Program-made: the position numbers and the translations under genes
Origin: Planctomycetes bacterium syqfu
GTDB taxonomy: Bacteria > Planctomycetota > Phycisphaerae > Phycisphaerales > Phycisphaeraceae
Direction of reading: 5' to 3'
Assembly: GCA_020974905.1 (NCBI GenBank)
Contig: CP087563.1
Location: forward strand, 1,922,001-1,986,000
Length of the DNA: 64,000 nucleotides
Shown: in pieces, positions 12,290 to 62,268 of the stretch
Layout of the letters: each line of letters opens with the position of its first letter
Numbering within the stretch: the stretch's first letter is position 1
Notes under the pieces: model-generated
The model's database searches: none
Told to the model about the DNA's origin: nothing
What the model saw: the letters and a program-made list of their open reading frames with translations, nothing else

Positions 12290-12434
12290 AGATCCCCCAA
12301 AGTCAGGCATGCCTGGTACAACGAATCAAGATCAATCAAGAAGCAGATGGTTTTATGTCATTCAAGGTGATGTGAATTAACACTTTAAACTATAAACACA
12401 TTAATCCTTTTATAGCACACAAAGTAGGTGATGC

Positions 12435-35062: not shown

Positions 35063-35127
35063 AGCAACAGTTGCTTTATGTCTAACTTTAGGCACAATTA
35101 TTGCGACGTCAACAACAAAATTGCGTC
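35063..35127. promoter_or_regulatory. Candidate regulator sites in the XylR-like/prepilin divergent promoter
   Basis: The 134-bp divergent gap contains a perfect palindrome AGCAAC-a-GTTGCT (35063-35075). It also contains a direct repeat of ATTGCG at 35100-35105 and 35120-35125, each followed by a CGTC or TC extension. The direct repeats are 20 bp apart, two helical turns, which is the usual spacing for AraC-type dimers such as XylR. Confidence 0.4.
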
Positions 35128-35159
35128 AAGCTTGTTTGAAAATACGACAGGATACCGTC

Positions 35160-46100: not shown

Positions 46101-46424
46101 AAGTTGCAAACGGGTATTGCTATCCGGCAAAACGAGCATCGGGCCAACATTGTCGTTGCTTGGCATGGTTGTCAAGACGGCTGCAAAGGCACTTTGATCC
46201 GGTGTTTGATTGTCATACGCAATATCAGGCGTTTGCGTGGATAAATAATCGGTATCAAGCACCACCGAACCGCCAACGGTCCCGGTGGATTGATACGTTG
46301 CATTGCCTTGCGAATCGTTAAAACGCAACTCGTAAAGCATGGCTGCATCCAGCCGACTCACGAGCCCCAACAAACATAAACCCAGTACAAAAACAACGCA
46401 TTGATCCCAATGTTTACCGTGCAT
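43119..46424 (-). CDS. Exported protein with two LamG-like domains and a beta-helix
   Basis: About 1101 residues from the ATG at 46424, with AGGAGA 6 nt upstream. A signal peptide (CVVFVLGLCLLGLVSRLDAA) is followed by two tandem concanavalin/LamG-like domains (about 30-215 and 225-415), each with a WVKWNGPGTGN or WIKWDGAGTGN block. From about 440 onward there is a pectate-lyase-like right-handed beta-helix (ALYLAYAQGNELILPAGEFYL, FTLQGAGMDDTTLILDHIDG, later NNDIDYTYSAGIAVNG and NNSINQSH). It probably binds and perhaps cleaves an extracellular polysaccharide. It lies downstream of the GH71-like gene on the same strand, 182 bp away. Confidence 0.78.
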   Translation of the reverse strand: MHGKHWDQCVVFVLGLCLLGLVSRLDAAMLYELRFNDSQGNATYQSTGTVGGSVVLDTDYLSTQTPDIAYDNQTPDQSAFAAVLTTMPSNDNVGPMLVLPDSNTRLQLSSSSDEMTLAMWVKWNGPGTGNLDRGLAGKWASNLGWSFSITPQGNLYFMLRTNTAATWSRKSEATLTQGQWTHVALVIDNDAPSYSKTDGGIRFYIDGKVAPLSQGMGAIGDVIAPVDTAVVIGCGFSGNARALNGSLDAVQIHDVALAENQIHLLHQAQSLRYHINFEDAQSSANFQSTGSVPGTVLQDTSTYAGTTPDVQFVSNTPDSSQWAGTFETLNPTSSLGSMLILPDSSNRFALSQSGDAMTLSAWIKWDGAGTGNFTRGIAGKWTGTAGWFYAIKPDGQLVFTLRTTTNSTWSRQTVATLTANQWTHITLVVDTAATEGTTRGGIQFYINGIMSPLSQSFGQMDDIIAQASTDVVIGANFSSNGQAFSGAMDDLRIYDTALSPMAIYTLAGSPGDTLDINDYIYTDAGKQKIALRDALYLAYAQGNELILPAGEFYLDTPGVGLNNIQAFTLQGAGMDDTTLILDHIDGPALTINGSDQITLKDFSIAVHPIPIVQATITNITPNGSQWIYDFTTHAGYPKLTTQNMANFHGCSCFFSGVDGKLLPDHGWFGAVGGSNVLRIDDTHGQLLSSATATVGDKLALPIRGYGFPLSVKQSSTTRLEDIAFLSSSSLAVSFRYCSGDNYLRATIKRAPKPSGATEDPLFSTNADGLNYILSSGTLTLDQCNFGYMGDDGVNISAPVVTVSEVISDTQVRVIYFDATDLQRMVQMSELGDVLRPMTFGDFSPQNELQLASITYDGTFTGILPTIISTHYSEVGKTAPTTWYQATLTFSQPTVDTIQVGDAIALRRGYPDTYTIKDSTFHNTRARGLLLMAPDGVVDNNVIDYTYLPGILMGGEYPFGYGDFVRNMIVSNNTLTNTMISSVIGPDSQAIAAIQVGHSAYHRSNSYAWGQGNANVQIFNNDIDYTYSAGIAVNGLINGQIQNNSINQSHIKHGADAGMNKNLTAPFAITIMNSTGIITGGNVVTNPGPYYQSDISDLGVYP

Positions 46425-46568
46425 TTTTCGTCTCCTGTGTGAAATGCATGCGATGTGGACGTGCAATCAAAATCAATCCAATGGATAAGCTGCAGCAGAC
46501 CTGCTGGTGTTAACAGCAGATCGCTGGATGCATTGCATTGAATCAATCAGTTCAGATTGTCTATCTCA

Positions 46569-46606: not shown

Positions 46607-48955
46607 TTAATCAGCCAGGGATTCGAGTTTGATTTGAAGTGACTTGAGCATCACAGGCATATAGTCAGGGTGATAGGAACCGATGATGTAAATCCGATCA
46701 CCCGGCTTGACGGTAATGTCAGAAAGATTCACATCCACCGATTCATTCTCCGGCACGCGCGTTTCCGTCAACGTCTCAAAGGGAGCGGTACGCTGGATGG
46801 TCAAGGTGCCTTTCCGGTCACTGCCATCGGGTTTGGCGTACGTGCTGATATCAAGTGAGACTTTGCCTGTCACCGGCGATTGCCATGCGAGCATTGCCGA
46901 GCAATGGGTGTTGGGGCGAAGCTGAATCATCCACGAATCATCAGCCGGATTTTGATGACGGGCAACCCAGCCATAGACATGTTTGTAGTGGTCATCATGG
47001 TATGGCGTGTGCTGCACCATGTCGCCTGCATATCCGACTTTACCACTGGAAATTGGGCAAGGCAGATACGCACCATCCAGTGGCACGGGACGGTCACCGA
47101 GCTTGTAAAGATAATGCCAAACCTTGCGACCGGTCGCATCGACATCAGGATTAAATGTCGCGCCGGATTGATGGACTGTCTCCAAATCCCAGACATGGCC
47201 GACCTGGTAGCTTTGGGTTTTGTTGCGTGGGTCAGACTGCTGGAGATATTCCTGCAAGTTGGTTAAACCATCACCATCTGGATCATCACTCGGATTGGTA
47301 CTGGTGGCTGTGCTGTAATCACCAAACTTGCCAAAGTAGAGCATCTCAAACCAATTGGGCAGTCCGTCGTCATCGGCATCACCATATTCAGCATAAGTCT
47401 GAACCGGCGTGTCGGGAAAATCAATCTGCCAATGGCGGTCAAACTCGCTGGAGTAACAGACCATGGCATTGGCTTCACGCCAGGGCTTATCGGAGATGGG
47501 ATCGGGAGATGTGACGCGCAATTGGACCTTACCACCGCGAACGACTTGAGCAACGACGGGGCCTGCTGTCAGCGGGAATTGCTTGACATAGAGTCCTGCT
47601 GGTGCGTCATAGTTGGCAGAGCGTCCGGGCAGTTGAATCTTGCCGGGCTTGGTGAGAATGGTGGCAACTTCAAGCACACCCGCCGTACTCCGGCGACTGT
47701 TGAGCGGGTAGATGGTGGCACCGGATGGATAGCGACGGTAGGTCAGATACACCTTGTCATGATCGTAAGTCGGTTCCTTGCCGGTCTTCCACCATTCGAT
47801 TTGATGTGCTGTCAGATCGTAGATGGTGTATCGCGTCGCAGTCCCCGGCGCGAGGTTGGTGTCTTCACCGTAGTCGTTCCAGGTGACGTATTGAATAAGC
47901 GTGCAGTCGGAGGATCGTGCGAGATTCCATAGATGTCGCGACAGATCGGTACCGGGTCGAACATGCAGCGAACCCATGATGTTGTTGTACTGATGCCACA
48001 TCGGGATTGCCCATGTTTTACCGGTCTTTTTGACGGATTGGCCGACACGTTCGAACTCGTTGAGCCAATTGACACCCAGGAAACCGCCGATGGCATCCTG
48101 TCCTTGAAGCTTGCCATCCCCGTTGGCCAAATAGGCTGCATAGTCCGCCATGATTGGGCCGGGCGTGTGGGGCAGCGTGGAACCTTCAATGTTGCGAAGG
48201 TCGATGCCCAGGAAGGCGTTGTCGATGTCGTGATGAATAAATATTTCAGTGTTGAATTCCTTGCGGACCATTTGGCGAAGATCGTTAAAGACGATGAGCT
48301 TTTGTTTCCAACGCTTGGCTTCGTCTTTGCCGCCCCCCATTTTTTGGACATCACGTGGGAGAAAACCCTGTGTGCTGTAGGTAAAAATCAGCGGTTTACC
48401 ATCACGGCGAGCGAGTTTGGGATGATCACCATAGTTTGAAAGCAGGTATCGCACCGTGTCATGCATGCCAGTAATGTGCCCCCCTGCCGAGTCGTCATAG
48501 CGCTCGGTTTTGACTTTGTGACAGGATGGGTCCAGGCAAAGGGTGACACTGAAATCAAGATTTTTTTCTTTGCAGATATCCAGAAACATGGCTAGTAACG
48601 GCTTGGCCAACTCCTCACTGGCCCATGCGTCGATGGCAAAACCGTCGAGGCCGATACGCATCGCGCGTTTAATCTCAAGTTCTGCAGCCTGCTTTAATTC
48701 GACCTGACTGTAAAACCATTCCTGGGGCACAAGTGACCAGTTGGTAACACGCCCGCCTACCTGGCTGAGCATGGACTTGTTCTCAGGGGAAATATCTTTG
48801 GGCTGCTGTCGATAGTGATGAGCGGTGGCTTTGGTACCTGCTGGCCAACTGCCCATGTAATGTGCGTAGATCTGTTTTTCAGACTTGGGTGCAGCCTGCG
48901 CGACTGAAAGACCTGCAAACAAAAAGACTATGATTACAGTACAAAAACGCGTCAC
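46607..48955 (-). CDS. GH71-like exported glycoside hydrolase with calcium-repeat linker
   Basis: 782 residues, with a GTG start at 48955 and a GGAG site about 8 nt upstream, inside the end of the preceding gene. MTRFCTVIIVFLFAGLSVAQA is a signal peptide. The catalytic part (about 28-420) begins with KQIYAHYMGSWP and contains RAMRIGLDGFAIDAW and WNDYGE, features of GH71 alpha-1,3-glucanase-like proteins. Residues about 520-580 contain thrombospondin-3-type calcium loops (DADDDGLPNWFE, DPDGDGLTNLQEYL). A beta-sandwich follows to the end. It probably acts on an extracellular glucan or related polymer; GH99-like activity is an alternative. It is 4 nt downstream of the GH42-like gene, so the two are co-transcribed. 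Confidence 0.78.
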   Translation of the reverse strand: MTRFCTVIIVFLFAGLSVAQAAPKSEKQIYAHYMGSWPAGTKATAHHYRQQPKDISPENKSMLSQVGGRVTNWSLVPQEWFYSQVELKQAAELEIKRAMRIGLDGFAIDAWASEELAKPLLAMFLDICKEKNLDFSVTLCLDPSCHKVKTERYDDSAGGHITGMHDTVRYLLSNYGDHPKLARRDGKPLIFTYSTQGFLPRDVQKMGGGKDEAKRWKQKLIVFNDLRQMVRKEFNTEIFIHHDIDNAFLGIDLRNIEGSTLPHTPGPIMADYAAYLANGDGKLQGQDAIGGFLGVNWLNEFERVGQSVKKTGKTWAIPMWHQYNNIMGSLHVRPGTDLSRHLWNLARSSDCTLIQYVTWNDYGEDTNLAPGTATRYTIYDLTAHQIEWWKTGKEPTYDHDKVYLTYRRYPSGATIYPLNSRRSTAGVLEVATILTKPGKIQLPGRSANYDAPAGLYVKQFPLTAGPVVAQVVRGGKVQLRVTSPDPISDKPWREANAMVCYSSEFDRHWQIDFPDTPVQTYAEYGDADDDGLPNWFEMLYFGKFGDYSTATSTNPSDDPDGDGLTNLQEYLQQSDPRNKTQSYQVGHVWDLETVHQSGATFNPDVDATGRKVWHYLYKLGDRPVPLDGAYLPCPISSGKVGYAGDMVQHTPYHDDHYKHVYGWVARHQNPADDSWMIQLRPNTHCSAMLAWQSPVTGKVSLDISTYAKPDGSDRKGTLTIQRTAPFETLTETRVPENESVDVNLSDITVKPGDRIYIIGSYHPDYMPVMLKSLQIKLESLAD

Positions 48956-48959
48956 AGGA

Positions 48960-51900
48960 TCACTCCGTTTCCAATTTCAGGACGAATGCCTGACCGGGGG
49001 TAAGATTCAATTCAATGCCGGTGTCCATCAAGACTTTGCCGGACTGGTTGGGCAAGGTTGTGTTATCCAGCAGGTTGGTGATGGTGTAGGTTGCGTTGGG
49101 ATCAAGCTTCTGCAATTGTGCTCGTGTGGTGACAGCAGTTTGATCCACCTTTTCAGGATGACCGCTCTTGAGGTAGTCGATATCGTTTTGCGAGATGAAA
49201 CGACGACCGACGTAAAAGTGTGTCTTACCATCCACGAGTTGACGGTCAATGAGTTGGACATCGCTGTCAGTTTGCTGTGCATTGGAATGCCCGGTAATGG
49301 ACTGCTCCAGGCAGGCTAAAAGTCCGGGACTGTTAAGCCAATCGACCACGCCACAGAAAGCGATCACCTGACCGCTGCCGAGTTTTTGTTGCGTGACCAG
49401 TTGCTCTGCCTTGCCGTTTGCCCAATGCCCCAGTTGCAGGTAACCACCAGCGACATTGTGAATCCACGGGGTCGGTTGATCATTGATCGGCGGGTTCCAT
49501 GGCTTGGTTCGGAAGTTGATGGTGCATTGATTCCAATGTGCGGTCACTGAATCCTTTTCGACCTTGCGTGACTGCCACTTCCCAAGTCCCAGTCGTGTGC
49601 TCAAGACATCCGTTTCCTGCGACTGCAAGGACCATTTGCCTGAACCAGCTTCCATGATCAACGTGCCGCCCTGTTGGACATATTGCTTTAACGCATCAAC
49701 GACATCCGTTGCCAACAAGTCCGAGGAATAGGGAACATACACCCACGGACGCCCCTTGAGCATCGCCAGATTCACGTCCTTGGCATGAAGTGCTTCAGCC
49801 CGCATATCCGACGCGGAGACGTGATGCCCAAACGGCTTGAGATAGTCGTGAATGCGATCATAAAACAGGTTGCCATGTTCATACAGCAGTGTTTCATCAC
49901 ACATCAGATAGCCGCCATGCATCACATCATGTGACTGAATCGGCTTGGCTTTGGTGATCTGATCCATAAAGCCGAACCAGACCTTTAAACGGTTCTCCGC
50001 TTCCTTGACCGGTGCGGGTTGATCTGCCACACGCCACTCGGGTTTCCAATAGTTGAATAAACCATGCATCCCCGGTTGATCGATCATGAGCATGTTGGTC
50101 AAACCGACATCCACAAGCATGGCCGTGCGTGCGATCTTGGCATGGGGTTCAAATCGACCGGGTTGGCCGGGTCGCGTTTCACGTGGGTACTGCGCTTCCA
50201 TCGAACCGTAGGTGATCACACCATCCAGTGCCTTGACGGTGTCCAGATAAAACTCGGTGGTGCCCGTGTTGTATATACCAAGAAACGCTGCAGGGTCAGC
50301 TTTGCGTGCTGCCTTGAGCCAACCGGTACGCAGTTGTGTGATCGCAAGAATCTTGTAATCCAACCAATCCTTGATTGCAGGCGTGTTATGCGGCATGGGT
50401 CGACCATCGCCATCCAATGCAACGCGGACATCGGGAAGTTGAATCTGTTCCCAGTGAACAAAGCTGCTATCATAGACTTCATTGAGCTTGGTGATACTGC
50501 CGTACTTGTCGGTAAGCCATACGATAAACCCACGACGCATGGTCTGTGAATAGTCGACGGATTGCCCAAGCCAGGGCATGTCGATCATGTCATGATCAAA
50601 GAACAGACTCTCGATGGTATAGCCAAGCACCGTCGGATTGTTGCGGTAATGTGCAGCGACGGTTGAGATATATTCATTGCTGAGTTTGCGGTAAGTCTGC
50701 GATGCCGGGCTGAACAGTTGATTGTCTGATCCACCCCATAAACCATGGGTAAAACCAGCCTGATCCGTCATGAGTTCACGCGGGACATAACCGGGAACCT
50801 GTCGGATCATGGGATGAATGCGCAGCGTGACTTTCAGTCCGCGCTGCTCTGCCAGACTGATGAGTTTATCGAGGTATTGGAACTGGTAAACACCGGGCAA
50901 TGGGCTCAGGTCATACCACGGAGCCGAGAGTTCAACGATGTTGTAACCCACTTCCACTGCGTCATCGAGCCAACCCTTAAAGTCCTTGAGTACCTGTTCT
51001 GAATTGGAAGTCACTGGCGTGGAGCCTTCATTCCAATCACCTTTGACGCGCCTGAGTTTGCCATCAAATTGCTTGACCTTAGGTGTCACCGTGACATTCT
51101 CAGCGGGCATGATCGGTGCTGGCGTCATCAAGCCCAACACACGATCAAGCACGTCAATAACCTTGCCATCATTCACAAGCTGCGCCTCAAGCCAGAGCAC
51201 CGAATCCTGCTTGAGATAGGATTCAAGTTGAATCTGTGATGTCTGACCGTCTGCAACTTTCGTGCCATCGGATCGGGAGAGTGTCCATTGGATCTGACCG
51301 GGCATGCCTGCTGTCAGTGAGATGGCAGCATTGGTTGCAGATGTAAAGACATTGGAAGCAACAGATGAGATCACCTGCAAGGGTTTACCCATCGGCAGAG
51401 ACGGTTGACTGCCGCGACTGTTGCGGTGAATCACATACTGCTGATAGCGTTGAATGATCTGACCATTGGGATAAACAGCATTGATGCGAACACGGTATGT
51501 CCCCGCATCAAGTAATGGCAACTGGATCACGTCATCGGCCTTCAGGTTCATTTCCTGCATCTGCGATGCGAGAACCGTCCAATCACCCGTTGCAAGAATC
51601 TCCCATGAAACAAGGGCTTTGCCGCTTCTCAGACGCAGGTCCGATGCTTTGAGATATGGGCCCGGTTCATCTGGGCCCCAACCATAACGGCCAAACCGGT
51701 CATAGGGTTTACGAATGTGTTGAATCCACTGCTGATCTGAATCAAGCTGCCAATAGGGATCCGCTTTTTCATCAGCGGTCAACGGCGTGATATCCTTGAT
51801 CTGTACCTGGCATGGCTTCTCACCCTGCCCACGCAACACCAGTCGGAAGCCCACCAGACGTACCGGAGATTGTGGTTGATCGTAGTAGTCAGGCGTTGCA

Positions 51901-52388
51901 GGTTTGACGCGCATCATCACCCACGGATCAATGCGCCCCATCTCGTTAATGTTCCAATCGAAACTCTGCAGTGTTCGCCAGTGATCGGTTAGCGGGATGT
52001 TACTGAGCTTGGCACCAAGACGTGTCCCCACTGCATAGACATGGCCGCGCTTATCAGCAATCAACACACGCAGCATCGGATCGTATGCTTTGTTGGAAGA
52101 CTCGGGATTGATAAACGACAAGCCAACGCGATTCACATCATCAGCAAGTGACATCGGCTTATCGAAATAGTAATCCACTGCCGTGCCGGGAAAATCCCAG
52201 TTCTCTGAATAGTCCCCCAATTCACTGACCGTTGCGGTGAGGGTGTATCCGTCATCCGTAAACTGCAACTGACCTGCAGCCTTACCGACGGGAACTTTGA
52301 TTGCATCCGATTCGGCAGCTGTGATTGTTTGTGACATGAACATCATCCCAAGAAACATCAAGACGTATACCATGCAACGCTGTCTCAC
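48960..52388 (-). CDS. Exported GH42-like clan-A glycosidase
   Basis: 1142 residues, with a GTG start at 52388 (GGAG 4 nt upstream; the ATG at 52373 is an alternative). The signal peptide is VYVLMFLGMMFMSQTITA. Long N-terminal beta domains precede a TIM-barrel (about 480-830) that starts with WLDDAVEVGYNIVELSAPWYDLSP. Candidate acid/base E593 lies in LGYTIESLFF, where GH42 would have Asn-Glu, and candidate nucleophile E731 lies in TYGSMEAQY. A GATase-like trimerisation domain follows (ALKQYVQQGGTLIMEAGSG, about 900-960). The family link is by layout; the substrate is unknown. It starts 45 bp after a prepilin-like gene and runs straight into the GH71-like gene. Confidence 0.72.
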   Translation of the reverse strand: MRQRCMVYVLMFLGMMFMSQTITAAESDAIKVPVGKAAGQLQFTDDGYTLTATVSELGDYSENWDFPGTAVDYYFDKPMSLADDVNRVGLSFINPESSNKAYDPMLRVLIADKRGHVYAVGTRLGAKLSNIPLTDHWRTLQSFDWNINEMGRIDPWVMMRVKPATPDYYDQPQSPVRLVGFRLVLRGQGEKPCQVQIKDITPLTADEKADPYWQLDSDQQWIQHIRKPYDRFGRYGWGPDEPGPYLKASDLRLRSGKALVSWEILATGDWTVLASQMQEMNLKADDVIQLPLLDAGTYRVRINAVYPNGQIIQRYQQYVIHRNSRGSQPSLPMGKPLQVISSVASNVFTSATNAAISLTAGMPGQIQWTLSRSDGTKVADGQTSQIQLESYLKQDSVLWLEAQLVNDGKVIDVLDRVLGLMTPAPIMPAENVTVTPKVKQFDGKLRRVKGDWNEGSTPVTSNSEQVLKDFKGWLDDAVEVGYNIVELSAPWYDLSPLPGVYQFQYLDKLISLAEQRGLKVTLRIHPMIRQVPGYVPRELMTDQAGFTHGLWGGSDNQLFSPASQTYRKLSNEYISTVAAHYRNNPTVLGYTIESLFFDHDMIDMPWLGQSVDYSQTMRRGFIVWLTDKYGSITKLNEVYDSSFVHWEQIQLPDVRVALDGDGRPMPHNTPAIKDWLDYKILAITQLRTGWLKAARKADPAAFLGIYNTGTTEFYLDTVKALDGVITYGSMEAQYPRETRPGQPGRFEPHAKIARTAMLVDVGLTNMLMIDQPGMHGLFNYWKPEWRVADQPAPVKEAENRLKVWFGFMDQITKAKPIQSHDVMHGGYLMCDETLLYEHGNLFYDRIHDYLKPFGHHVSASDMRAEALHAKDVNLAMLKGRPWVYVPYSSDLLATDVVDALKQYVQQGGTLIMEAGSGKWSLQSQETDVLSTRLGLGKWQSRKVEKDSVTAHWNQCTINFRTKPWNPPINDQPTPWIHNVAGGYLQLGHWANGKAEQLVTQQKLGSGQVIAFCGVVDWLNSPGLLACLEQSITGHSNAQQTDSDVQLIDRQLVDGKTHFYVGRRFISQNDIDYLKSGHPEKVDQTAVTTRAQLQKLDPNATYTITNLLDNTTLPNQSGKVLMDTGIELNLTPGQAFVLKLETE

Positions 52389-52433
52389 ACGTTACTCCAT
52401 TCTCAAAGAAATTGATTAAATTTTAAAACTGAT

Positions 52434-53186
52434 TCAAGGCTTGTTTTCCGGGGAAAACGCGTCATAGCCACTGACAGATGTCCAGAATGTTTTGTTGGCA
52501 TAAGCCGACTGCCATTGCTTGTTGACACCTTCAGCCAATGCAGATGAAGGCAGTTCGCTGGAGGGTTTCCAACTCACATGCCCATCAAGAAACGCGACGT
52601 TAAAACCAAGGCGTTGATGATTGACGATGTTGTCGGAGTATGTCGGGTATTGCAGGTTCAGATTATCTGCAAACAAGGCAGGATTGACATTCCATTTACC
52701 AACCTGAAAAACATCGCCAACGTAGCTGCTGTCCGTATTTTCATAGACACCATTCATGATCGGGATAATACCCATCGCATAGCTGGACCAGGCACTACGA
52801 TTGGCTTCCTTGTCCTTGACATATTGGCGATTGGCAGCTTCACCACCGAAACGTGACCAGGCACTGTCCGGGCAGTAGAAGACATCCACCACGTTGTTCA
52901 GGTAACGCACCAGGTGCCCGCCAGCCGTGTAGTTGCCACTCCAGCCGTCCCATATCTGGTCCGTACAGTTGTTGCCGGTCATCGGGGTTGGGTTAAAGGC
53001 TTCACGAAAATCGTTGAGATACACCCGAAATACCAATGCCAACTGCTTCTCCTGCGTGGCACATTGAACTTTGCGTGCCGCGGCGCGGGCCTTGGCCAAC
53101 GACGGGAGCAGAATCGAAATCAACATCGCGATGATGCTGATCACCACCAATAACTCAATCAAGGTAAAACCTGTGCGTTTGGACAT
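52434..53186 (-). CDS. Prepilin-like protein, H-X9-DG type
   Basis: 250 residues, with GGAG 7 nt before the [31 protein letters not shown] is a short, canonical prepilin signal. The conserved ARKVQCATQEKQLALVFRVYLNDF block follows, and HQRLGFNVAFLDGHVSWKPS is the H-X9-DG C-terminal motif. It sits between the GntR/LacI hybrid (72 bp upstream) and the GH42-like gene (45 bp downstream), all on the minus strand. It is expected to be a membrane-anchored pseudopilin-like protein of unknown role. Confidence 0.9.
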   Translation of the reverse strand: MSKRTGFTLIELLVVISIIAMLISILLPSLAKARAAARKVQCATQEKQLALVFRVYLNDFREAFNPTPMTGNNCTDQIWDGWSGNYTAGGHLVRYLNNVVDVFYCPDSAWSRFGGEAANRQYVKDKEANRSAWSSYAMGIIPIMNGVYENTDSSYVGDVFQVGKWNVNPALFADNLNLQYPTYSDNIVNHQRLGFNVAFLDGHVSWKPSSELPSSALAEGVNKQWQSAYANKTFWTSVSGYDAFSPENKP

Positions 53187-53258
53187 GGCAGGTCTCCAAT
53201 CTGAAAAGTATTCCGAGATGTATCTATCAGTGCGTTGACATACTGCACTCGCACCGTC

Positions 53259-54374
53259 TCAATCTGCCACAATCATGGCAGGTGTTTGCATATCTCTAGC
53301 ACGTTCGTGGGCCATATGCGGGATGAGCCACTGACGCGATGCGAGTATCTCAGGCGAAAGCCAACTGTGTTTGAGTAATTGCACCACCTGTTTGGCCAGG
53401 CGATACACATCCACATCGAACCGAATCACCGGCAAGCCGAAAATCAACGTACCGGGCACATTGGCCTGTACCGCAATCTCAGGCTGATACGCCTTCTGAT
53501 CACGGAGCACATCCGTTAATCCGGAGGCGAGCACATCGTTAATCACCACCATGCCATCCGGTCGCTGACGCACGGGCATTTTCAGGATCCGACGCGCCAG
53601 TTGTCGCCCTGCTTCAAGGCTGATATCACCAGCTTCAAGGATCGGGGCCGTCTGAAAACTGTGCATCTCCGATGCCTGGATGAAGGCATTCCAGTAACGG
53701 TTGTGATGCCGGGCGCGTGCGTCTTTGGTGACAACAGCCAGACGTTTACAACCCCGTGAAACAAGCATTTCACAGGCTTGAAGCATCATCGGCTGCTGAT
53801 CAATCACGACCCCTGCGTTGGTCTTTTCCCATGAACTGACATGCAGCCAGGGAACGCCGAGTTTGGTCAGCGGTGCAGTATCATCGGACGCTACGGCAAT
53901 CGGGCAGATCACCGCATCAATGTCGCCCTGCAAGACCATCTCTTCCAAACCCGGGAACGTATTCAACGGCCACTCGGCATTGCCGTGCTTGTCAATGACA
54001 TGCGCCATGATGCGAACCTGCGCCCCAAGAATCTCACGGATGTAACCTTCCAAGGCACGAAGCAGGTGACCGTAAAACGGTTCGTCGGGCAAGGTGTTAT
54101 GCGGGACCATCGCCAGCATCACGGTGTGATCATCCAGACGTGCTTTGGACATGTCCAGCACCATCGTGCCGGCACGTTGCTTGCGTTCCAGGACACCGTC
54201 TTCGACCAGCCACTTCATGGCGCGGGTGAGGGTGTCATTGCTGAAATTCAGTTCCTGGCGTAACTCGGCCTGCGTTGGGAGCAACTGCCCCACGGTAACT
54301 TTCTGACTGCGCAGGTAACGCAGAATCATGCGATAGGCTTTGAGAGCCTGAGGATGATTGCGTACTTCTGTCAT
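53259..54374 (-). CDS. GntR-type HTH regulator with LacI-like sensor domain
   Basis: 371 residues, with AAGGA 6 nt before the ATG. The winged HTH (about residues 10-75) has LLPTQAELRQELNFSNDTLTRAMKWL and DGVLERKQRAGTMVL. The rest is a periplasmic-binding-type sensor (LAVVTKDARARHHNRYW, DGMVVINDVLASGLTDVL). A near-palindrome lies 16 bp before its start codon, and a perfect version of the same sequence lies before the TIM-barrel glycosidase at 56395. The protein probably represses itself and that enzyme and releases DNA on binding a sugar. Confidence 0.9.
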   Translation of the reverse strand: MTEVRNHPQALKAYRMILRYLRSQKVTVGQLLPTQAELRQELNFSNDTLTRAMKWLVEDGVLERKQRAGTMVLDMSKARLDDHTVMLAMVPHNTLPDEPFYGHLLRALEGYIREILGAQVRIMAHVIDKHGNAEWPLNTFPGLEEMVLQGDIDAVICPIAVASDDTAPLTKLGVPWLHVSSWEKTNAGVVIDQQPMMLQACEMLVSRGCKRLAVVTKDARARHHNRYWNAFIQASEMHSFQTAPILEAGDISLEAGRQLARRILKMPVRQRPDGMVVINDVLASGLTDVLRDQKAYQPEIAVQANVPGTLIFGLPVIRFDVDVYRLAKQVVQLLKHSWLSPEILASRQWLIPHMAHERARDMQTPAMIVAD

Positions 54375-54389
54375 GCTGATTCCTTTTTA

Positions 54390-54408
54390 AATACCGACTA
54401 TCAGTATT
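54390..54408. promoter_or_regulatory. Operator-like site upstream of the GntR/LacI hybrid gene
   Basis: AATACCGAC-t-ATCAGTATT is an imperfect 19-bp palindrome (two mismatches) 16 bp before the ATG at 54374. Its left half and spacing are identical to the perfect palindrome at 56408-56426, which suggests that both are bound by the same regulator, most simply the GntR/LacI hybrid encoded here. Confidence 0.65.
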
Positions 54409-54469
54409 TTTCTCAACTACCTGCGTCAAGTCAATGTTGATCGCCAATCAATTTGGCGAGACTGGTTAT

Positions 54470-56395
54470 TCAGGAAACGGTGACCTTGCCCGAAGCAAAG
54501 TCGGTTTGAACCACTTTGCCGTCGGCATACGTCGTGTGCCAGAGTTCATCAGACACCTGCTCAATCGCCTCAATGTCCACCGACACACGGTCAGCCAACT
54601 GTTTGCAGCAGAGTTCCTGCGAGGCCAATACGTACTCGCGGACATCGTCATACGTTGGCATGCCATGAGCCCCGGGAACATGTTCATACGCAATCTCAAC
54701 AAACGGCATGGCGCCCCAGAGACAATCCATCAATGCACCGCGACGTCCCTGCAATGCCAGTGAGTGCGCCAGGTGATAACGGATACCGTTGTGTAGCGTC
54801 ACCGCCAATGCCGGGACATGCTCATCGACAAATTGTTCGACAAAGTCGGTGAACTTGCCAGCTGACTCCACGCCATGTGTCATGTACACACCGTCCATCA
54901 AATGCAGGTAGGGACCGAAGGCAATCTCCGTACTGACGGTGTCAAAATGCTGCTGTGCAAGGGTAAAAATGGCTTTGAACCCATCCATGATCGCACGACG
55001 ATCTGCAGGATGTTCATCACTGTGACAGGTCGACAGGGCGCCGATGGCATCCATGTAATAATTGGCTTTGACGCCCAACTGAGCAATGCGTGGCATGTCG
55101 CGATGGGCATGCTTGATGCTCTGCAACGGGCAAAGTCGCCAGTTGAAACCGCCCGCCCAGGGAACGTTGCGCCAATGCTTGCCATCACGTCCGACGATGA
55201 CGTTGGCCATGTCAAAATCGTCACCGCATTGATAGCTGTCTGAAAAATTATCATGTACACCGATGTGAATGTTTTGTGATGCACCCCATTGAATCAATTC
55301 GCGCATCGCAGACTCACCGCCTGCCTGTTCATTGACCGGGAAGCGTTGCGGATAACGTCCGTCATGCCCCTGTGCATTCCAGCCAACCATCTGTGTGGTG
55401 ATGTGATCAATGCCATCGTCCCGCATGCGTTGGAGAATTGCTTTGGTTTGAGCAAAGGTGGTGTTGGATTGATAAGCCCCCTGCCCGTTAAGGTCCGACT
55501 TTTTGTAACCCATCATAATTTTCAGCAGATAGGTCTGAGCAAAATCGCGAACCGCTGGGCGCGTCTGCGCTTTTTGTTCAAGCGTCTGAAGACCACGCTC
55601 ATCGCGAAGCCACTGCCGATAGATCCGGGCAAACTGGTTGTAGGCTTTCCCATCGGATGATGTTGGGCAAAGCGTCAACTGACGATCACCATCAATCATT
55701 GCATCACTGTGATCCCAACGATACACCCATGACGCGTGAACACTGTAAGTTTTTTCCGGGCCGAAGTGCGAACGCACCACCAGTTCCGCATCATGATCAC
55801 CCTTTGTCACCATGCCGCAGAAACGATGGCCAAGCGTTTGAATACCAAAGAGATTAAAGTGACATTTCATGGCCCACTGGGGTTGGGCTGCATAAATTGT
55901 CAATCGGAGTTCGCGAGCAATGTCATGATCAAATCGATGCAAAACCCCTGAAAAACAAGGCAAAAACAGATACCCGTCCTGTCCTGCCGACGCAGCCCCC
56001 ATCTCAGGGAGAATATCAATGGACATCAACGTCGCCGCGTCAGGCAGCAATTCCACCAACTCCGACTGGGGTAAAGTCAACTGCAAATGTCCATTTGCGG
56101 GATCAACCGTAACATGCAGTTGGAAGCTGATCACACGACCGACAAATGGAATCGACACGGCACATTCGAGCACCTGCCCATTTTCAATCGACCGCACCTT
56201 GACCACTTGAACCGGATGCTCCTCATGGCGAATCTCCATGTGATTCCATATCCGACAAGTGGCAACCCTGTTAACAGAAATGGCCTCAGACCAGAGTTCC
56301 GAAGTAACAATAAAGCACGATGCGTTCTCATCGTAACGCCCATGCGTCTGTGAGATTTCATTGTGATGCGTTGCGGTGGGACTGAATGTAATCAT
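54470..56395 (-). CDS. TIM-barrel glycoside hydrolase-like protein (DUF5696/GH101-like), no signal peptide
   Basis: About 641 residues from the ATG at 56395 (AAAGG 8 nt upstream); the frame is open to 56479 but the extra part would cross the operator. The N-terminal half is beta-rich, with MVTKGDHDAELVVRSHFGP resembling a block of DUF5696 proteins. The C-terminal half is a barrel (MMGYKKSDLNGQGAYQSN, GIDHITTQMVGWN). Its candidate catalytic acids are D449 in NYYMDAIGA and E490 in VSTEIAFG, placed as in GH101/GH36-type retaining enzymes. The family call is inference. No signal peptide is seen, so it likely acts in the cytoplasm on imported oligosaccharides. It lies just upstream of the GntR/LacI hybrid gene. 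Confidence 0.65.
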   Translation of the reverse strand: MITFSPTATHHNEISQTHGRYDENASCFIVTSELWSEAISVNRVATCRIWNHMEIRHEEHPVQVVKVRSIENGQVLECAVSIPFVGRVISFQLHVTVDPANGHLQLTLPQSELVELLPDAATLMSIDILPEMGAASAGQDGYLFLPCFSGVLHRFDHDIARELRLTIYAAQPQWAMKCHFNLFGIQTLGHRFCGMVTKGDHDAELVVRSHFGPEKTYSVHASWVYRWDHSDAMIDGDRQLTLCPTSSDGKAYNQFARIYRQWLRDERGLQTLEQKAQTRPAVRDFAQTYLLKIMMGYKKSDLNGQGAYQSNTTFAQTKAILQRMRDDGIDHITTQMVGWNAQGHDGRYPQRFPVNEQAGGESAMRELIQWGASQNIHIGVHDNFSDSYQCGDDFDMANVIVGRDGKHWRNVPWAGGFNWRLCPLQSIKHAHRDMPRIAQLGVKANYYMDAIGALSTCHSDEHPADRRAIMDGFKAIFTLAQQHFDTVSTEIAFGPYLHLMDGVYMTHGVESAGKFTDFVEQFVDEHVPALAVTLHNGIRYHLAHSLALQGRRGALMDCLWGAMPFVEIAYEHVPGAHGMPTYDDVREYVLASQELCCKQLADRVSVDIEAIEQVSDELWHTTYADGKVVQTDFASGKVTVS

Positions 56396-56407
56396 GCAAA
56401 AAACCTT

Positions 56408-56426
56408 TAATACCGACTGTCGGTAT
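56408..56426. promoter_or_regulatory. Perfect 19-bp palindromic operator
   Basis: AATACCGAC-t-GTCGGTATT is a perfect inverted repeat 13 bp upstream of the glycosidase start codon at 56395. It matches the site at 54390-54408 with two differences. The position suggests that a bound regulator would block transcription of the glycosidase gene. Confidence 0.75.
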
Positions 56427-56486
56427 TTATAGGCTCGCACTGTATTCAGATCAAGTATCCAGTCGATTTTTTTTACCAATCAATAG

Positions 56487-56516
56487 AAAAAGCCTGTTGC
56501 TTTAAAAACGACAGGC
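56487..56516 (-). terminator. Intrinsic terminator after the prepilin-like gene
   Basis: On the minus strand, GCCTGT (56516-56511) pairs with ACAGGC (56497-56492) across a loop of about 13 nt, and is followed by TTTTTC. It lies about 50 nt after the stop at 56568 and would end the LacI-glycosidase-prepilin transcript before the next gene's operator. Confidence 0.6.
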
Positions 56517-56567
56517 CATCAGAAACTCATGCTTAAACGACATTTAACGAAAACCATCAGTCAAAGA

Positions 56568-57323
56568 TCATTTGTCTTGCCAAAGGTTATTAAATGTCAC
56601 ACCGTTGGGGATTGTCTTCACCGAGCTATCGGCTTTGAGCACATTGGAAGCATTATTGTGATGGTTGGATGGGTAGTGATCCGGCTTGGAGGGGTCGGAT
56701 GCGTAGGTCCACCAGTTGCTGTGCGACGCTTCATCGACACTGCCGGACTCCATGTTTTTTTCATAGAGCAGGACCGTGTTGGTATAGAGATTTTCGATGC
56801 GTGTCGGCCGGTCATCCGTTCCACTGGTGGCAAAGCGAGTGCGGAATCCGACACGTTCATCGGTACTGATCCCGCCCATGGAGGTGCCGTAGTTCATGCC
56901 CTTGTCAGCTGCACTCTTGAACTGCCCCACCCCTGTGCCACTGATCTGATAGGACGGACAAAGATACGGTCCACCAACCCCCATGAGGTAATTTCGGTAT
57001 TGCCACTCAAAGGTCAGCGTACCGGGATGACGTACACCCAGGTAATCACTGATGGGAACGATCCAGCTACTGTGCGAACTGCCGTAGGTACTGATCACCA
57101 CAGGTGGCAGAAAGCCGTTGCTGCGTTCCCCCGCATACATGTTCAACGCCAGACCGATTTGCTTGAGTTGGTTCATACACTGGACATTGCGTGCTGACTC
57201 CCGGGCTTTTGACAGCGCGGGGAGCAGGATGGCAATGAGTAAAGCAATAATCGAGATCACCACCAACAACTCTATCAAGGTGAACGCATTGTTATGTCTG
57301 AAAAGTTTGCTCTGAGTTGACAT
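56568..57323 (-). CDS. Prepilin-like protein, divergent H-X9-DG type
   Basis: 251 residues from the ATG at 57323 (GAGGA 7 nt upstream; the frame extends to 57338). The signal is [28 protein letters not shown], with Ala at the position before cleavage. The next block is [23 protein letters not shown]. The C-terminal [15 protein letters not shown] is a degenerate form of the DG motif (DS instead of DG). It lies 49 bp after the large glycosidase gene on the same strand, so here the pseudopilin follows the enzyme rather than preceding it. Confidence 0.87.
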
Positions 57324-57372
57324 GGGTAAATTCCTCATGGGTTTAATCTGTCATACCTGGTGAAACAAACAA

Positions 57373-60300
57373 TTACTCCAACACCAGCACCGGCCAGAAC
57401 TCCGGCAAGGCGTGAGGTTGATGCGGCAGTGGTGTGGTGACCAATGCCTGACGGCGTTTGTGATCGGCGTCAGCATCATTGACCGCCAGGGCAAAACCAA
57501 ACGCCGTGCCGGACTTGAACTGTAATGGGAAGAGTTGCCTGGGTGGCAAATAAAACTCATAAACCGTCTGCCCCTGAGTATGCGTGATGGCGCATTGGCC
57601 ATCGGTGATCGGGCCGACATCCACAAAACCAATCTGCCATTCGGGAGGCAAAGTCCGGAACATCTGGTCTTTGCCTTGTGATTTGGCGATGGCAATGACC
57701 TGGTCGTTACTGTCATAGCGGGTGCCCAGTTGGTCCGAACCATCTGCCATCAAGTCGACATAGAGTTGCAAACTGTCTCCCCGCCAACTGTTGGGCATGT
57801 CATGTTGCTGACTGAAAAAATCATCCTGCACCACGACACACATGTACAGCCCATCGGACTTGTAGCCCATGTATAGCTTGGCATCAAGATCCTGCCTGCC
57901 ATGCCAGGTCTGTTCCTTAAGCCACGTCCAGATTTGGCTTGAGCCGTCAATGTGTAACGGTTTGATGCCCGCCCAATCAGTCAACTCACCATCGATCTGA
58001 ATGGGACGCTTGATGTGTGGCACGGTCAATGCCTGCTGTTGCCAATGCCGGGTCACAGGCGAAGCACCATCATCCGGCATAAACACCGCATCAATCACGG
58101 CGTCTGCATATACGCCAGGTTGTGTCGAGGGCAAAGTGATATCAACCTTCTGCTGCATCTTCGGAGCAATGCTCAATGACTGTTTGGCCAACGGCGTGTT
58201 GTTGAGCTTGATCGCCAGCTTGCCAGTATTGGTTTGTGGCAGACGATTGACGACTTGAATCACGCCCGTTGTCGCAGAAGTCCGATGTAACTGCAAGGCA
58301 ACGGATTGAGCGCCAAGTCCGCCAATCTGTGTTTGCTTGAGATGCCTAAGGACATTGTCCACCGAGTTTGCGGAGGTCACCAGAAAGACCGGGTGACTTG
58401 CCAACATCATTGACAGGCGACCTTGTTCCTGAGTGACCGAGACGGGATTGCCCTGAAAATCAAGGAGTTTCCAGCCCGCGGGGAGTTTGGGCATGGTCAA
58501 TTCCTTACCCTCGGATTCACCACGATCGACTTTCAAATCGTAAAGCCACATGGCGGTGACCGCCGAGCCATCGACACCAGCAAAGACATAGGTCCGACTG
58601 TCATCACCAATCAACTCTTCAGAATGCAGATGACGATTGCCCACCAGGTTCAGCAGGTTGTTGATGGCTGCCATGGTTGTATCCGGATGCCCAGGCATGG
58701 GGGCAAGCTGCGGGGCTTCTTCCTGATACCAGTTCAGGTAATAACGGACATGTTCACGATTGGCCAGACAGGCAAGAAGCGTGCGACACATCATCGCGGC
58801 TGCCAGGCGTTCGGCATGACCGACATCCTGACTGACAGGCCCCAACCGCCAGGGATAAAAACCACGCAACGGTGTCGCGTTCATCTCCGGCACGTTGTAC
58901 GGGCAAGTCCCCTCCCCTTCTGTGAAATAGATCGGTGCATCCGACAAACCGTGACGGGCTTTGAGATCGATAAGCCGACTGATGTCCGTTGCCAGATCGG
59001 GATCTTCCGGTCGGGCGCGATAGGTGTGAATCGACACCGCATCAACTGCTTGATTGCCACCGGCCTTGAAAAATTGATCCAACCAACTCTGGCCACTGCG
59101 TGAGGCGTTGTACGGATCAGGCGTCAGAATAACGGTATCAGGATTCACTGCCTTGGCTTTGCGGGCAAACAGCGTCACCGCTTTGGCGCAGTCTTCGGGC
59201 GTGCTCATGTAGCCACTGGTGTTGGGCTCGTTGATTGTTTTCCAAACCGGTTGAGCAGCATACGTCGGAAGTCTTTGTTCCAAGGCCTTTTCAAGTTTCT
59301 CCCAATCCGCATCGGTGTAACGGGCATCATGAAAATGGGGCACATCCAGATCGCGTTTGTTGAGCATGGTCACGATGTGCAGAAAATCCATCGTGTTAAA
59401 TTGCTCAATCACCGACGGGTCCTGGGGCAAAAAGAAACTCAATGTCCCACGCACGCCCAACTGCTTGAGAAACGGCACGTCTCGGGGCAACACCCAATCA
59501 CGACGCTGAGCATAGCGAAACGCACCGAGATCCGATTGGGATAAATCAACCAATCTTGCAACACGACCATAGGCAATCACCGGTGTTTTCTGCCCTGCCA
59601 ACTCAGCGTGCATGTTCAACCGAAGCATGCCCTTGAGCTTGATCGACTCAAGTGGGAGTTCAAAGGTTTGGCGTTGATTGGCAGCGATGTCACTTGTGAA
59701 AGTCTGCGTGTGATGCGTATTGCCCCAGACATCCTGTACGTCGACTTTGAGAGTAACCTGCTGTGACTGTGATGTTGTGTTGGCTGCGTGGATATTGACA
59801 ATCGGATTGGCTTGCGTGGTGAAAAGATATTGTTCGCGTGTCTGTGTGTCGGACCAAATCTGCAATGGCTCCTGCGTGAAGTCCAATGCCGTATCACCTT
59901 CATGAAGTTGAACATCATCAAACCAGATACTGCCAGTCTGTTGGTCTTTGCGATGGATCACCGCCCAGGGGTCGCCCAGTCCGATGCGGACCATGGTATT
60001 GATGGCTTTGAAGGTGCAGGTGCAACGCTGCCAACCGTCTTTGAGTGTGACACGTTTGCCCTGGAACTTGGGCCATGTGTCGGTTTGCACGAAGACGGAG
60101 GTGCGCATGCCAGCGTGTTGCGGTTTGGCGTAGAAGCTGATGGTGTAGGTCTTACCGGGTTGTGTCGCAAACGGCATGGTACATGCCATCGGCGGAACCT
60201 GTCCGGGGGTGACGTCATACCGCAGGGACTGTCGACCGGTGTGTTTGACCTGTGAATCCAAATGCCATGATTGCAGATCGCGATCGGGCATGGTGTAAGA

Positions 60301-61143
60301 CGTAATGCCCCATGTCCAACTGGAAAGGTCCGCTTCAAAGCCGGGATTGGGCAGCAGGTTTGCAGGGATCGTTGATGTCGCCAACGACAGTGCATCACGC
60401 TTGGCCCAGGTCGGTTCATACACCCGCAATTTGCTGGTATCAATTTGTGCTTGTTTTGCAGGTGTTGCGGGCTTCTTGGCTTGGGGTTCGTTGGCTGCTT
60501 TGTCCTCGGGTTGTGATGGTGATTCCTCTGCCACCGGTCCCAGTTTGATTTTCAAATGGGCGACACTGTTTTTTCGTGTGTGCACGTAGACCTGTAAATC
60601 TGTGCGGTTGGGTTGATCGCGATAGTCACGCAGATTGGCAAAATGCACGCCATCAATCTCAACGGCCAATTGTTTCTGAGGCGTATCTGAAAAAAAGACC
60701 ATCTTTTTGGCATGGGGAAATTCATGCTTCTCAAATCGCATGGGGACGGTGATCGTGCGTTTATCCAGCTTGACTGTTTTGCCCTGCAGCAACTCGCCGG
60801 AGAATGAAAGCAGAATGGCCTTGCTCCTCTCGGGCTTGAACTTGACCTTCACTTCAAGCACGTTGTCAGCAAACTGGTAAACCACCTGCTCAACAGGCTG
60901 CTGATCCGCTGGCAATGTGTTGAGCGTGATGGTGTCATCGTCTTGTTGAATGTCGACCGTGTTGTAACGCACCGCAGGGTACAGCGACATCATGACATTG
61001 CCATCATGGTAAATCTTGGCCGTGCCATCGGTGATGACGACCTGCCAAAGGCCGGACTCCCAGTTGCGATTCCCATCGGCGAAGACAACAGGAGTCGACA
61101 GTAAAACGACACAGATTAATCCTATCAGCGCACGCAATATCAT
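57373..61143 (-). CDS. Multidomain exported clan-A glycosidase with CBM-like domains
   Basis: 1256 residues. ILRALIGLICVVLLSTPVVFA is a signal peptide; GAGGG is very close to the ATG, so a TTG two codons on may be used instead. An N-terminal beta domain is followed by a Pro/Ala/Lys-rich linker (about 205-235). A CBM4/9-like module comes next (about 262-415, NLLPNPGFEADLSSWTWG). The TIM-barrel (about 560-850) has acid/base E639 in KTINEPNTSGY and nucleophile E742 in IYFTEGEGT. The C-terminal part (about 1030-1256, IQIDGELTDWAG) resembles the CBM9 domain. It probably degrades an extracellular polysaccharide. It lies between its LacI regulator (49 bp upstream) and a prepilin-like gene. Confidence 0.78.
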   Translation of the reverse strand: MILRALIGLICVVLLSTPVVFADGNRNWESGLWQVVITDGTAKIYHDGNVMMSLYPAVRYNTVDIQQDDDTITLNTLPADQQPVEQVVYQFADNVLEVKVKFKPERSKAILLSFSGELLQGKTVKLDKRTITVPMRFEKHEFPHAKKMVFFSDTPQKQLAVEIDGVHFANLRDYRDQPNRTDLQVYVHTRKNSVAHLKIKLGPVAEESPSQPEDKAANEPQAKKPATPAKQAQIDTSKLRVYEPTWAKRDALSLATSTIPANLLPNPGFEADLSSWTWGITSYTMPDRDLQSWHLDSQVKHTGRQSLRYDVTPGQVPPMACTMPFATQPGKTYTISFYAKPQHAGMRTSVFVQTDTWPKFQGKRVTLKDGWQRCTCTFKAINTMVRIGLGDPWAVIHRKDQQTGSIWFDDVQLHEGDTALDFTQEPLQIWSDTQTREQYLFTTQANPIVNIHAANTTSQSQQVTLKVDVQDVWGNTHHTQTFTSDIAANQRQTFELPLESIKLKGMLRLNMHAELAGQKTPVIAYGRVARLVDLSQSDLGAFRYAQRRDWVLPRDVPFLKQLGVRGTLSFFLPQDPSVIEQFNTMDFLHIVTMLNKRDLDVPHFHDARYTDADWEKLEKALEQRLPTYAAQPVWKTINEPNTSGYMSTPEDCAKAVTLFARKAKAVNPDTVILTPDPYNASRSGQSWLDQFFKAGGNQAVDAVSIHTYRARPEDPDLATDISRLIDLKARHGLSDAPIYFTEGEGTCPYNVPEMNATPLRGFYPWRLGPVSQDVGHAERLAAAMMCRTLLACLANREHVRYYLNWYQEEAPQLAPMPGHPDTTMAAINNLLNLVGNRHLHSEELIGDDSRTYVFAGVDGSAVTAMWLYDLKVDRGESEGKELTMPKLPAGWKLLDFQGNPVSVTQEQGRLSMMLASHPVFLVTSANSVDNVLRHLKQTQIGGLGAQSVALQLHRTSATTGVIQVVNRLPQTNTGKLAIKLNNTPLAKQSLSIAPKMQQKVDITLPSTQPGVYADAVIDAVFMPDDGASPVTRHWQQQALTVPHIKRPIQIDGELTDWAGIKPLHIDGSSQIWTWLKEQTWHGRQDLDAKLYMGYKSDGLYMCVVVQDDFFSQQHDMPNSWRGDSLQLYVDLMADGSDQLGTRYDSNDQVIAIAKSQGKDQMFRTLPPEWQIGFVDVGPITDGQCAITHTQGQTVYEFYLPPRQLFPLQFKSGTAFGFALAVNDADADHKRRQALVTTPLPHQPHALPEFWPVLVLE

Positions 61144-61192
61144 ATCCCTCGAATTGAACGAAAAACACTGTTAAACAAGCGTGATTTACGAA

Positions 61193-62224
61193 TCAGACAC
61201 GCTTACACGTTGAACCCAGATGCAGATATTCAGGCACGAGTACATTCTCGAAATTTGCCTGTTGATGCTTGATCATGTCGATGCACAAGTCCGCAGCCAC
61301 ACGCCCCATTTGATCAAACGGCAGTATCATCTGGGTGATGTGATCATGCTCCTTTTGAGCAGGCAATCCTGCCAAACTCAGGATGTTGATTTCATCGGGC
61401 ACCGCGATGCCCATGTCCGACAAGCAGGCAATGGCTTTCATTGCCATGGTGTTGTTGTAGCAGACGACGGTGTCGACTTTGGACCGCTTGAGTAATCTTG
61501 CCAGGGGCTGCTTGGAAAAGTTGGTGTGATCAAATTCACCGGCCAACGCAATGTCCATGGCATGCAGTTGGTCAAGCAGGACATCTCGGCGGAGTTTGCC
61601 GCTGTAGTGATTCGTCTTGGCGGTAACATACAACACACGTTTGGAACCGATGAGCGAAAGCAATTTACACGCCTGCTTCACACCATTGGCATCATCAGGC
61701 AACACGCCGTTATGCTTGGGAATCTTGTACGGATTGAAGATCACCACCGGTAACCCGGCTTCCTGAATACTCACCAGTGAATCGTCTTCGGGGCCCATCG
61801 CAAACGTCACCGCTGCAGCCAAACCATGTCGCCGCATCCGTTCACGCAAACGTGAAACATGAAACTGATCGTTGGCATAGATCATCTGCTGCGTCATGTC
61901 GAAGCGTTCGAGTTGACGACTAAGCTGTTCGACAAAAATCGACTCCATGCTGTCAAAGCCGTTGCGGTATGGATGAATGATCAAACCAACCGGCAAATGG
62001 GTCGGCAAGTTACCCACCCCACGGCGCGGCTCAAGCTGCTGAACACGACGCCGCGTTCGGTAACCAAGCTTCCGCGCACTCTCACGGACACGATCAGCCA
62101 ACTCCTCGGAGTAACGGACGTTGTTGTTGTTCCGACCGTTGAGAATGGTTGAAGCTGCTGCCAGGGAGCAGCCTGCCAACTCGGTCACATCTTTGAGTGT
62201 GGGTTTGGTTTCCGAACACTTCAT
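61193..62224 (-). CDS. LacI-family transcriptional regulator
   Basis: 343 residues from the ATG at 62224; the frame is open to a TTG at 62260 but the LacI domain begins at PTLKDVTELAGCSLAAASTILNG. The HTH (about residues 8-30) and hinge (YSEELADRVRESARKLGYR) are standard. The effector domain includes VVIFNPYKIPKHNGVLPDDANGVKQACKLL and the C-terminal region that closes on the sugar. It leads the glycosidase-prepilin set and probably represses it until a released sugar binds. Confidence 0.92.
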   Translation of the reverse strand: MKCSETKPTLKDVTELAGCSLAAASTILNGRNNNNVRYSEELADRVRESARKLGYRTRRRVQQLEPRRGVGNLPTHLPVGLIIHPYRNGFDSMESIFVEQLSRQLERFDMTQQMIYANDQFHVSRLRERMRRHGLAAAVTFAMGPEDDSLVSIQEAGLPVVIFNPYKIPKHNGVLPDDANGVKQACKLLSLIGSKRVLYVTAKTNHYSGKLRRDVLLDQLHAMDIALAGEFDHTNFSKQPLARLLKRSKVDTVVCYNNTMAMKAIACLSDMGIAVPDEINILSLAGLPAQKEHDHITQMILPFDQMGRVAADLCIDMIKHQQANFENVLVPEYLHLGSTCKRV

Positions 62225-62246
62225 GCCTGATTCTATCCCAGCTTTG

Positions 62247-62268
62247 AAAACCACAAACAAGCGGTTTT
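62247..62268. promoter_or_regulatory. Possible inverted repeat upstream of the LacI gene
   Basis: AAAACCAC (62247-62254) and GCGGTTTT (62261-62268) form arms with one mismatch and a 6-bp spacer. LacI operators normally have no spacer and a central CG, so this is a weak candidate for autoregulation. Confidence 0.25.

Follow-up and report, generated by a model that had tools for sequence, protein, structure and literature searches.

AraR of Bacillus subtilis, whose operator is ATTTGTACGTACAAAT, carries a LacI-type sugar domain, and to our knowledge no such domain is present in NagQ or NanR. One report on AraR, a member of the AraR subfamily of GntR, describes palindromic operators at the promoters of sugar genes and a repression that is relieved by arabinose (PMC4218819). 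For the GntR regulators at large, another report states that many but not all of their sites fit the pattern NyGTNxACNy, to which NagQ and NanR are among the exceptions, that an arginine of the recognition helix (HTH position 38) contacting G may be a conserved feature, and that the half-sites of NagQ and NanR, from the FadR/HutC subfamilies, are TGGTATT and TGGTATAW (PMC4494728). Within the titles and opening lines of abstracts covered by our literature searches, no operator was described for a GntR/LacI hybrid in planctomycetes; a search for the word DUF5696 found no paper.

The locus described here lies in a 64,000-nucleotide stretch of the genome of Planctomycetes bacterium syqfu, which is referred to below as the window. 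The sites were observed directly, as were where they lie, how far they are conserved, that they co-occur with the regulator and that promoter-like elements overlap them; from this we infer that a GntR/LacI hybrid regulator binds two palindromes, that it represses rather than activates, how far its operon extends and that a sugar is the inducer. Based upon the sequence comparisons, we consider it likely, with a probability of roughly 0.83, that the two palindromes are operators through which this hybrid represses a DUF5696 glycosidase gene and its own operon until a sugar releases it.

Genes, putative operators and promoter-like elements

The features of the locus are collected in Table 1. The start of the glycosidase gene was taken as the ATG at 56395, which is also found in the related genome G001, in preference to the TTG (56479) with which the mechanical ORF begins. 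Its product matches the family profiles PF18952 (135.1 bits, cutoff 25.6) and PF12905 (29.5 bits, cutoff 25), and in a PDB sequence search its residues 253-473 match the alpha-N-acetylgalactosaminidase 5wzn (E 4.1e-18), which we take to be a GH129 enzyme. The TIM-barrel glycosidase of the initial annotation is thus borne out as a DUF5696/GH101-like protein with a sequence match to a solved alpha-N-acetylgalactosaminidase. Since no signal peptide was evident in it by eye, the enzyme could act on imported sugars and could shape the inducer level.

Table 1. Position of the genes and sequence elements of the locus within the window.
Feature	Position	Strand	Basis or remark
Laminin_G/beta-helix protein	43119-46466	minus	140-base gap after GH71-like gene
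GH71-like, probable operon member	46607-48955	minus	order kept in G001, G003, G019
GH42-like, probable operon member	48960-52388	minus	Pfam
Pilin-like (N_methyl), probable operon member	52434-53186	minus	Pfam
GntR/LacI hybrid regulator, 371 aa, likely binder	53259-54374	minus	PF00392 2.4e-12, PF13377 1.6e-7
Putative operator copy 2, AATACCGACTATCAGTATT, 2 mismatches to perfect 19-mer	54390-54408		ahead of regulator gene
Regulator promoter-like element TTGACT-17-AAAAAT	54406-54434	minus	promoter scan; overlaps operator copy 2
DUF5696 glycosidase, 641 aa	54470-56395	minus	Pfam and structure-database sequence match
Putative operator copy 1, perfect 19-bp palindrome, AATACCGACTGTCGGTATT / AATACCGACtGTCGGTATT	56409-56427		ahead of DUF5696 glycosidase gene
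Glycosidase promoter-like element TTGATC-17-TATAAA	TTGATC 56449-56454, TATAAA 56426-56431	minus	read from sequence
Terminator-like hairpin GCCTGTCG...CAACAGGC, then TTTTT	56487-56516	minus	read from sequence

Downstream of the regulator gene, the gaps to the pilin-like, GH42-like and GH71-like genes are in turn 72, 45 and 4 bases, and the switch proposed here probably covers more genes on this side than the glycosidase-regulator pair. The Laminin_G/beta-helix gene also comes next after the GH71-like gene in the related genome G003; for G001 and G019 the sequence covered stops short of this gene. Upstream of the DUF5696 gene there are another pilin-like gene, a large glycosidase-like gene and a LacI gene (61193-62260). 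To judge from the letters, this upstream unit ends in the terminator-like hairpin, whose paired part is at 56492-56516 with TTTTT after it, and, because the hairpin closes it, DUF5696 probably depends on a promoter of its own. Hairpins fold at the terminator-like place in the source genome, G001 and G003. A terminator scan, which takes loops of 3-8 only and whose output does not include the 56487-56516 hairpin, listed 19 terminator-like sites vs 18.8 in shuffles, i.e., the chance level, and one of these sites is operator copy 1. Elsewhere in the window there is a further hybrid regulator, of AraC type with a LacI-type sugar-binding domain (35121-36299), and a very large ORF of 3269 aa (2501-12310).

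The palindrome ahead of the glycosidase gene is perfect, as the initial annotation had claimed, and its true place is one base off the 56408-56426 given there. The near copy ahead of the regulator gene was confirmed by mismatch search both in its position and in its two differences; it had been placed 16 bp upstream of the regulator start, which is about right, as 15 bases were counted between it and the ATG (start 54374, minus strand). Operator copy 1 overlaps the TATAAA of the -10 element, such that the palindrome begins inside it. G001 shares this layout ahead of DUF5696, as does G003 with TTGATT in place of TTGATC, which gives TTGATY-17-TATAAA in three genomes. Ahead of the regulator gene, ATTGAC is invariant in four genomes, the -10-like element is weak, and in G019 a TATAAG overlaps the first base of the site. 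The promoter scan of the region returned 6 matches vs 18.2 in shuffles, i.e., fewer than chance, and the regulator element listed by it is therefore weak by itself. The scan requires a T at the sixth -10 position, so that the TATAAA of the glycosidase is absent from its output.

With at most 3 mismatches, the 19-mer matches the window twice (mean in shuffles 0.07; two matches in 0 of 100). The whole-genome scan at this threshold that had been proposed for the 19-mer found these same two places only in the single-contig genome of 7,376,598 bases, and the reversed control gave 0. For uniform bases, the number of matches expected per genome is 2.5 at up to 3 mismatches and 0.15 at up to 2; with as few as 2.5 expected, the absence of other genome matches says little. 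For the gap upstream of the regulator gene, the number of matches with at most 2 mismatches expected from uniform bases is only 1.6e-6, and hence the second copy in this place says much. Additionally, the window has no perfect 19-bp odd palindrome besides operator copy 1, and 14 others in it have one broken pair. When palindromes ahead of the source regulator were scored, TCGCCAA-attga-TTGGCGA ranked above the operator (7 vs 6.5). It lies at about 54440-54460, in the stretch that separates the glycosidase gene from that of the regulator and at a distance of 85 bases from the regulator ATG, and it was not reported by the same scoring in the orthologous gaps of G001 or G003.

Conservation of the sites and of their gene neighbourhood

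The source genome (G000) was compared with G001 and G003, planctomycetes that belong to the same genus, and with G019 from another genus, where the regulator is 60% identical. The site is present ahead of the orthologous regulator in G001, G003 and G019 and at both promoters in G001 and G003, which supports the earlier suggestion that the regulator and the glycosidase would be under one self-tuned switch. The seven sites in these four genomes have 11 of 19 columns common to all. With G000 as the reference and gaps counted as differences, the glycosidase site is identical at 19/19 positions vs 115/153 in the rest of the gap in G001 and at 16/19 vs 65/153 in G003, and for the regulator site the corresponding values are 19/19 vs 37/76 in G003 and 14/19 vs 34/76 in G019. 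The regulator site of G001, a close relative, is no better kept than its surroundings (16/19 vs 64/76); of its 9 pairs, 3 are broken, and it departs from the perfect 19-mer at 5 positions. Three pairs are also broken in the glycosidase site of G003, and ATACCG-N5-CGGTAT is exact in the regulator site of G019.

The relaxed motif RATACYGNNNNNCGGTATT is present in 4 of 51 genomes of the family and in 0 of the other 47, with every match at this locus, and its reversed control has 1 match in 1 of the 51. The four genomes with the motif are also the four whose regulator is at least 60% identical. As the motif was drawn from these very sites and three of its four carriers are of one genus, the informative part of this result is that the other 47 are without it. 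One of these, G002, comes from the same genus but is 78% complete; it has neither the regulator nor the site. No further regulator orthologue was found at E 1e-30 in a draw of 397 genomes from the class. A search of six relatives for the 19-mer at up to 3 mismatches found the glycosidase site of G001, both sites of G003, two places elsewhere in G019 (control 3), whose true site with 4 differences was missed, one place elsewhere in G010 (control 1) and none in G005 or G020. A scan of genome contigs gave 3 loci, viz. those of G001 and G003 and one Spartobacteria homologue at 28%, and a plasmid search with 54375-56500 gave no match.

The order regulator, pilin, GH42, GH71 is the same in G001, G003 and G019. 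Of nine DUF5696 places found, 8 were inspected, and 6 of these have a GntR-type regulator close to the DUF5696 gene (the window, L042, L043, L050, L051, and L053, and not L052 or L054), three of the six being one locus in G000, G001, and G003. By Pfam, the regulators of L050, L051, and L053 all have a GntR domain, whereas the LacI-type domain passes its cutoff in L051, falls short of it in L050 and is not detected in L053. A second DUF5696 gene of the genome (L053, 4234-7554) is divergent from a GntR-type regulator and is accompanied by two pilin-like genes; the interval between the DUF5696 and regulator genes of this locus showed no strong palindrome. In G019, where no DUF5696 match was found, an ORF that looks by eye like a phage-type integrase adjoins the regulator promoter, where the other genomes have the glycosidase gene (L044, 489-1334). 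The LacI-large glycosidase-pilin-like module (56568-62260) is contiguous here and in G001, and its G003 counterpart is on another contig with 58-63% identity; to judge by this arrangement, it looks like a separately placed regulator-enzyme-pilin cassette. A Gfo/Idh-type gene lies directly upstream of DUF5696 in G003 and beyond the LacI gene in the window.

The DNA-reading residues of the hybrid and palindromes of its relatives

The assignment of the regulator as a GntR/LacI hybrid, with an architecture of the AraR type, holds, as both of its domains were found by Pfam. The N-terminal GntR winged helix (PF00392) scored 46.7 bits vs a cutoff of 27, and 36.2 bits in the G019 orthologue; the C-terminal LacI-type sugar domain (PF13377) scored 32 bits vs a cutoff of 26.5, and in the G019 orthologue 22.9 bits, which is below the cutoff. 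In the whole-protein PDB search, the sequence matches to 3c3k and to 3bbl, which is named as a LacI-family protein, fall in the C-terminal part. An AlphaFold model of it (pLDDT 63, TM about 0.16) is too poor to add weight.

In both sites AC pairs precede GT pairs and no GT stands before an AC, and neither site has the GT-N-AC box of the typical GntR operator NyGTNxACNy. The recognition-helix arginine at HTH position 38 was likewise not found; Asn46 takes its place in all four orthologues, which also have Gln35 and Thr50 in common. Judged from these residues and letters, binding by this protein is not predicted from the known GntR contacts. The change of the arginine is not unique to this locus, since 44 of 71 aligned relatives are also without it (27 of the 71 keep it, and 10 have Asn there). 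A more tentative idea, which we regard as somewhat more probably wrong than right, is that the regulator is part of one branch of the GntR/LacI hybrids, in which the key recognition Arg of the family and its partners, a Glu and a second Arg, have changed to Asn, Gln, and Thr, respectively, that this branch reads an everted AC-N9-GT palindrome (ATAC-N9-GTAT) and not GT-N-AC, and that the planctomycete hybrids are diversified reading heads, each with a local palindrome. If true, a specificity code could be worked out from these reading heads together with their palindromes.

At E 0.001, and with 48 out of 85 first-look candidates scored, the regulator matches 19 places in G000; this count includes the regulator itself, and not all of the places are confirmed as two-domain proteins. 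Like the window regulator, several of these relatives have a short palindrome of their own near the start, and they differ from it in the palindromes and, very strongly, in the recognition-helix residues. In the last 90 bases before the starts of relatives from G000, G001, G003, and G019 (46, less L117 and L126 for which no start was found), 24 of 44 had a palindrome scoring at least 6 vs 9.5 in shuffles. This enrichment is a loose indication, because orthologues are not independent and the best scorer of the window regulator is not the operator. Some of the relatives' own palindromes are kept between species, e.g., ATTTGATT-a-AATCAAAT (L120, L133) and AAATTGA-N5-TCAATTT (L112, L130). The full site was found in none of the distant homologues of the regulator (28-32% identity). 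ATAC-N9-GTAT is exact 74 bases ahead of the chosen start of one homologue, L016, an event seen in 0.0005 of 2000 single-base shuffles and at the same place in 0 of 64 other relatives. The fit of L028 has one mismatch, and L017 and L168 have no fit at that spacing. The L016 site, which was spotted after looking at the sequences and overlaps a TATAAT, is suggestive at most.

The initial annotation had also offered the 19-mer as a search string for the regulon; used in this way it returns this locus only, and its relaxed forms are no commoner than controls. ATACCGNNNNNCGGTAT occurs in the genome 12 times at up to 1 mismatch vs 9 for the reversed control and 202 vs 197 times at up to 2 mismatches. 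Eight of the 10 other matches at up to 1 mismatch are inside mechanical ORFs of at least 288 aa, and the remaining L065 and L071 are inside ORFs of 72 and 123 aa only. With counts this near to the reversed control, no further members of a wider regulon can be claimed, though weak ones may exist.

The proposed switch and its comparison with known regulators

In the proposed switch, a dimer of the regulator on either site would cover the -10 and probable start region and thereby block transcription. One site would throttle the DUF5696 glycosidase, the other the regulator itself together with the glycan-degradation genes that follow it (pilin-like, GH42-like and GH71-like), and a sugar bound in the LacI-type domain would release both.

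LacI-family proteins typically bind palindromes, and the foremost of the alternatives, improbable as it is, is that some other regulator binds these ones, e.g., the LacI-family protein encoded at 61193-62260, whose gene shares the strand of the locus and lies some 5 kb away from the glycosidase site. However, G003 keeps its palindromes at the GntR module and has the LacI-GH-pilin module on a different contig, C32, G019 has the site with no LacI match at E 1e-20, and in G000 the palindrome was not found at the promoter of the LacI gene itself with up to 3 mismatches. When the two regulators are compared across G003 and G019, it is thus the GntR/LacI hybrid alone that accompanies the site. That the palindromes arose by chance is scarcely credible: to meet one perfect 19-bp odd palindrome within 64 kb is no great rarity, but the second copy, at up to 2 mismatches, stands where 1.6e-6 are expected and the site is kept in four genomes.

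The palindrome might also act in the leader RNA, as a hairpin for attenuation, translation or stability control, and not as a protein site on the DNA, a reading to which we give a slim chance. Four of the five distinct site sequences do form a hairpin, with 7 or 8 pairs and a folding energy between -5.0 and -7.2 kcal/mol, several asymmetries in the sites are G-U compatible and the terminator scan lists operator copy 1. However, because TATAAA overlaps the first bases of copy 1, a transcript from it would presumably start inside the palindrome and be without most of the 5' arm; the glycosidase site of G003 forms no more than 3 pairs, copy 1 is followed by AAAGGTTTTT and not by a direct T run, and no Rfam match was found within 52000-58000. 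Regulators of this kind can work by activation or by repression, and a similarly slim chance attaches to the same protein binding as an activator, or mainly regulating itself with no control of the glycosidase. The position of the site over the -10 and start region is however the classical one of a repressor, and the perfect copy is the one at the glycosidase, where the site persists in both G001 and G003.

Repression by the GntR/LacI hybrid, the reading preferred here, would provide a testable regulator-operator pair in planctomycetes and a naturally occurring departure from the contacts usual among GntR regulators, and the local regulon points to a glycan as the inducer. In comparison with known regulators, the half-sites of NagQ and NanR resemble the CGGTATT half-site found here, but their sites are direct repeats, unlike the palindrome of this locus (PMC4494728). 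AraR has a GntR-type winged helix as in the window regulator, and its Glu30, Arg41, and Arg45 align with Gln35, Asn46, and Thr50 (PMC4218819). AraR was absent from the whole-protein search at E 0.001 and was matched by the N-terminal part alone at E 0.001, and the AraR operator bears no resemblance to the site described here. Judging from the sequence, this locus most likely encodes a local, self-regulated sugar repressor of an already known kind, whose DNA-reading part is somewhat unusual.
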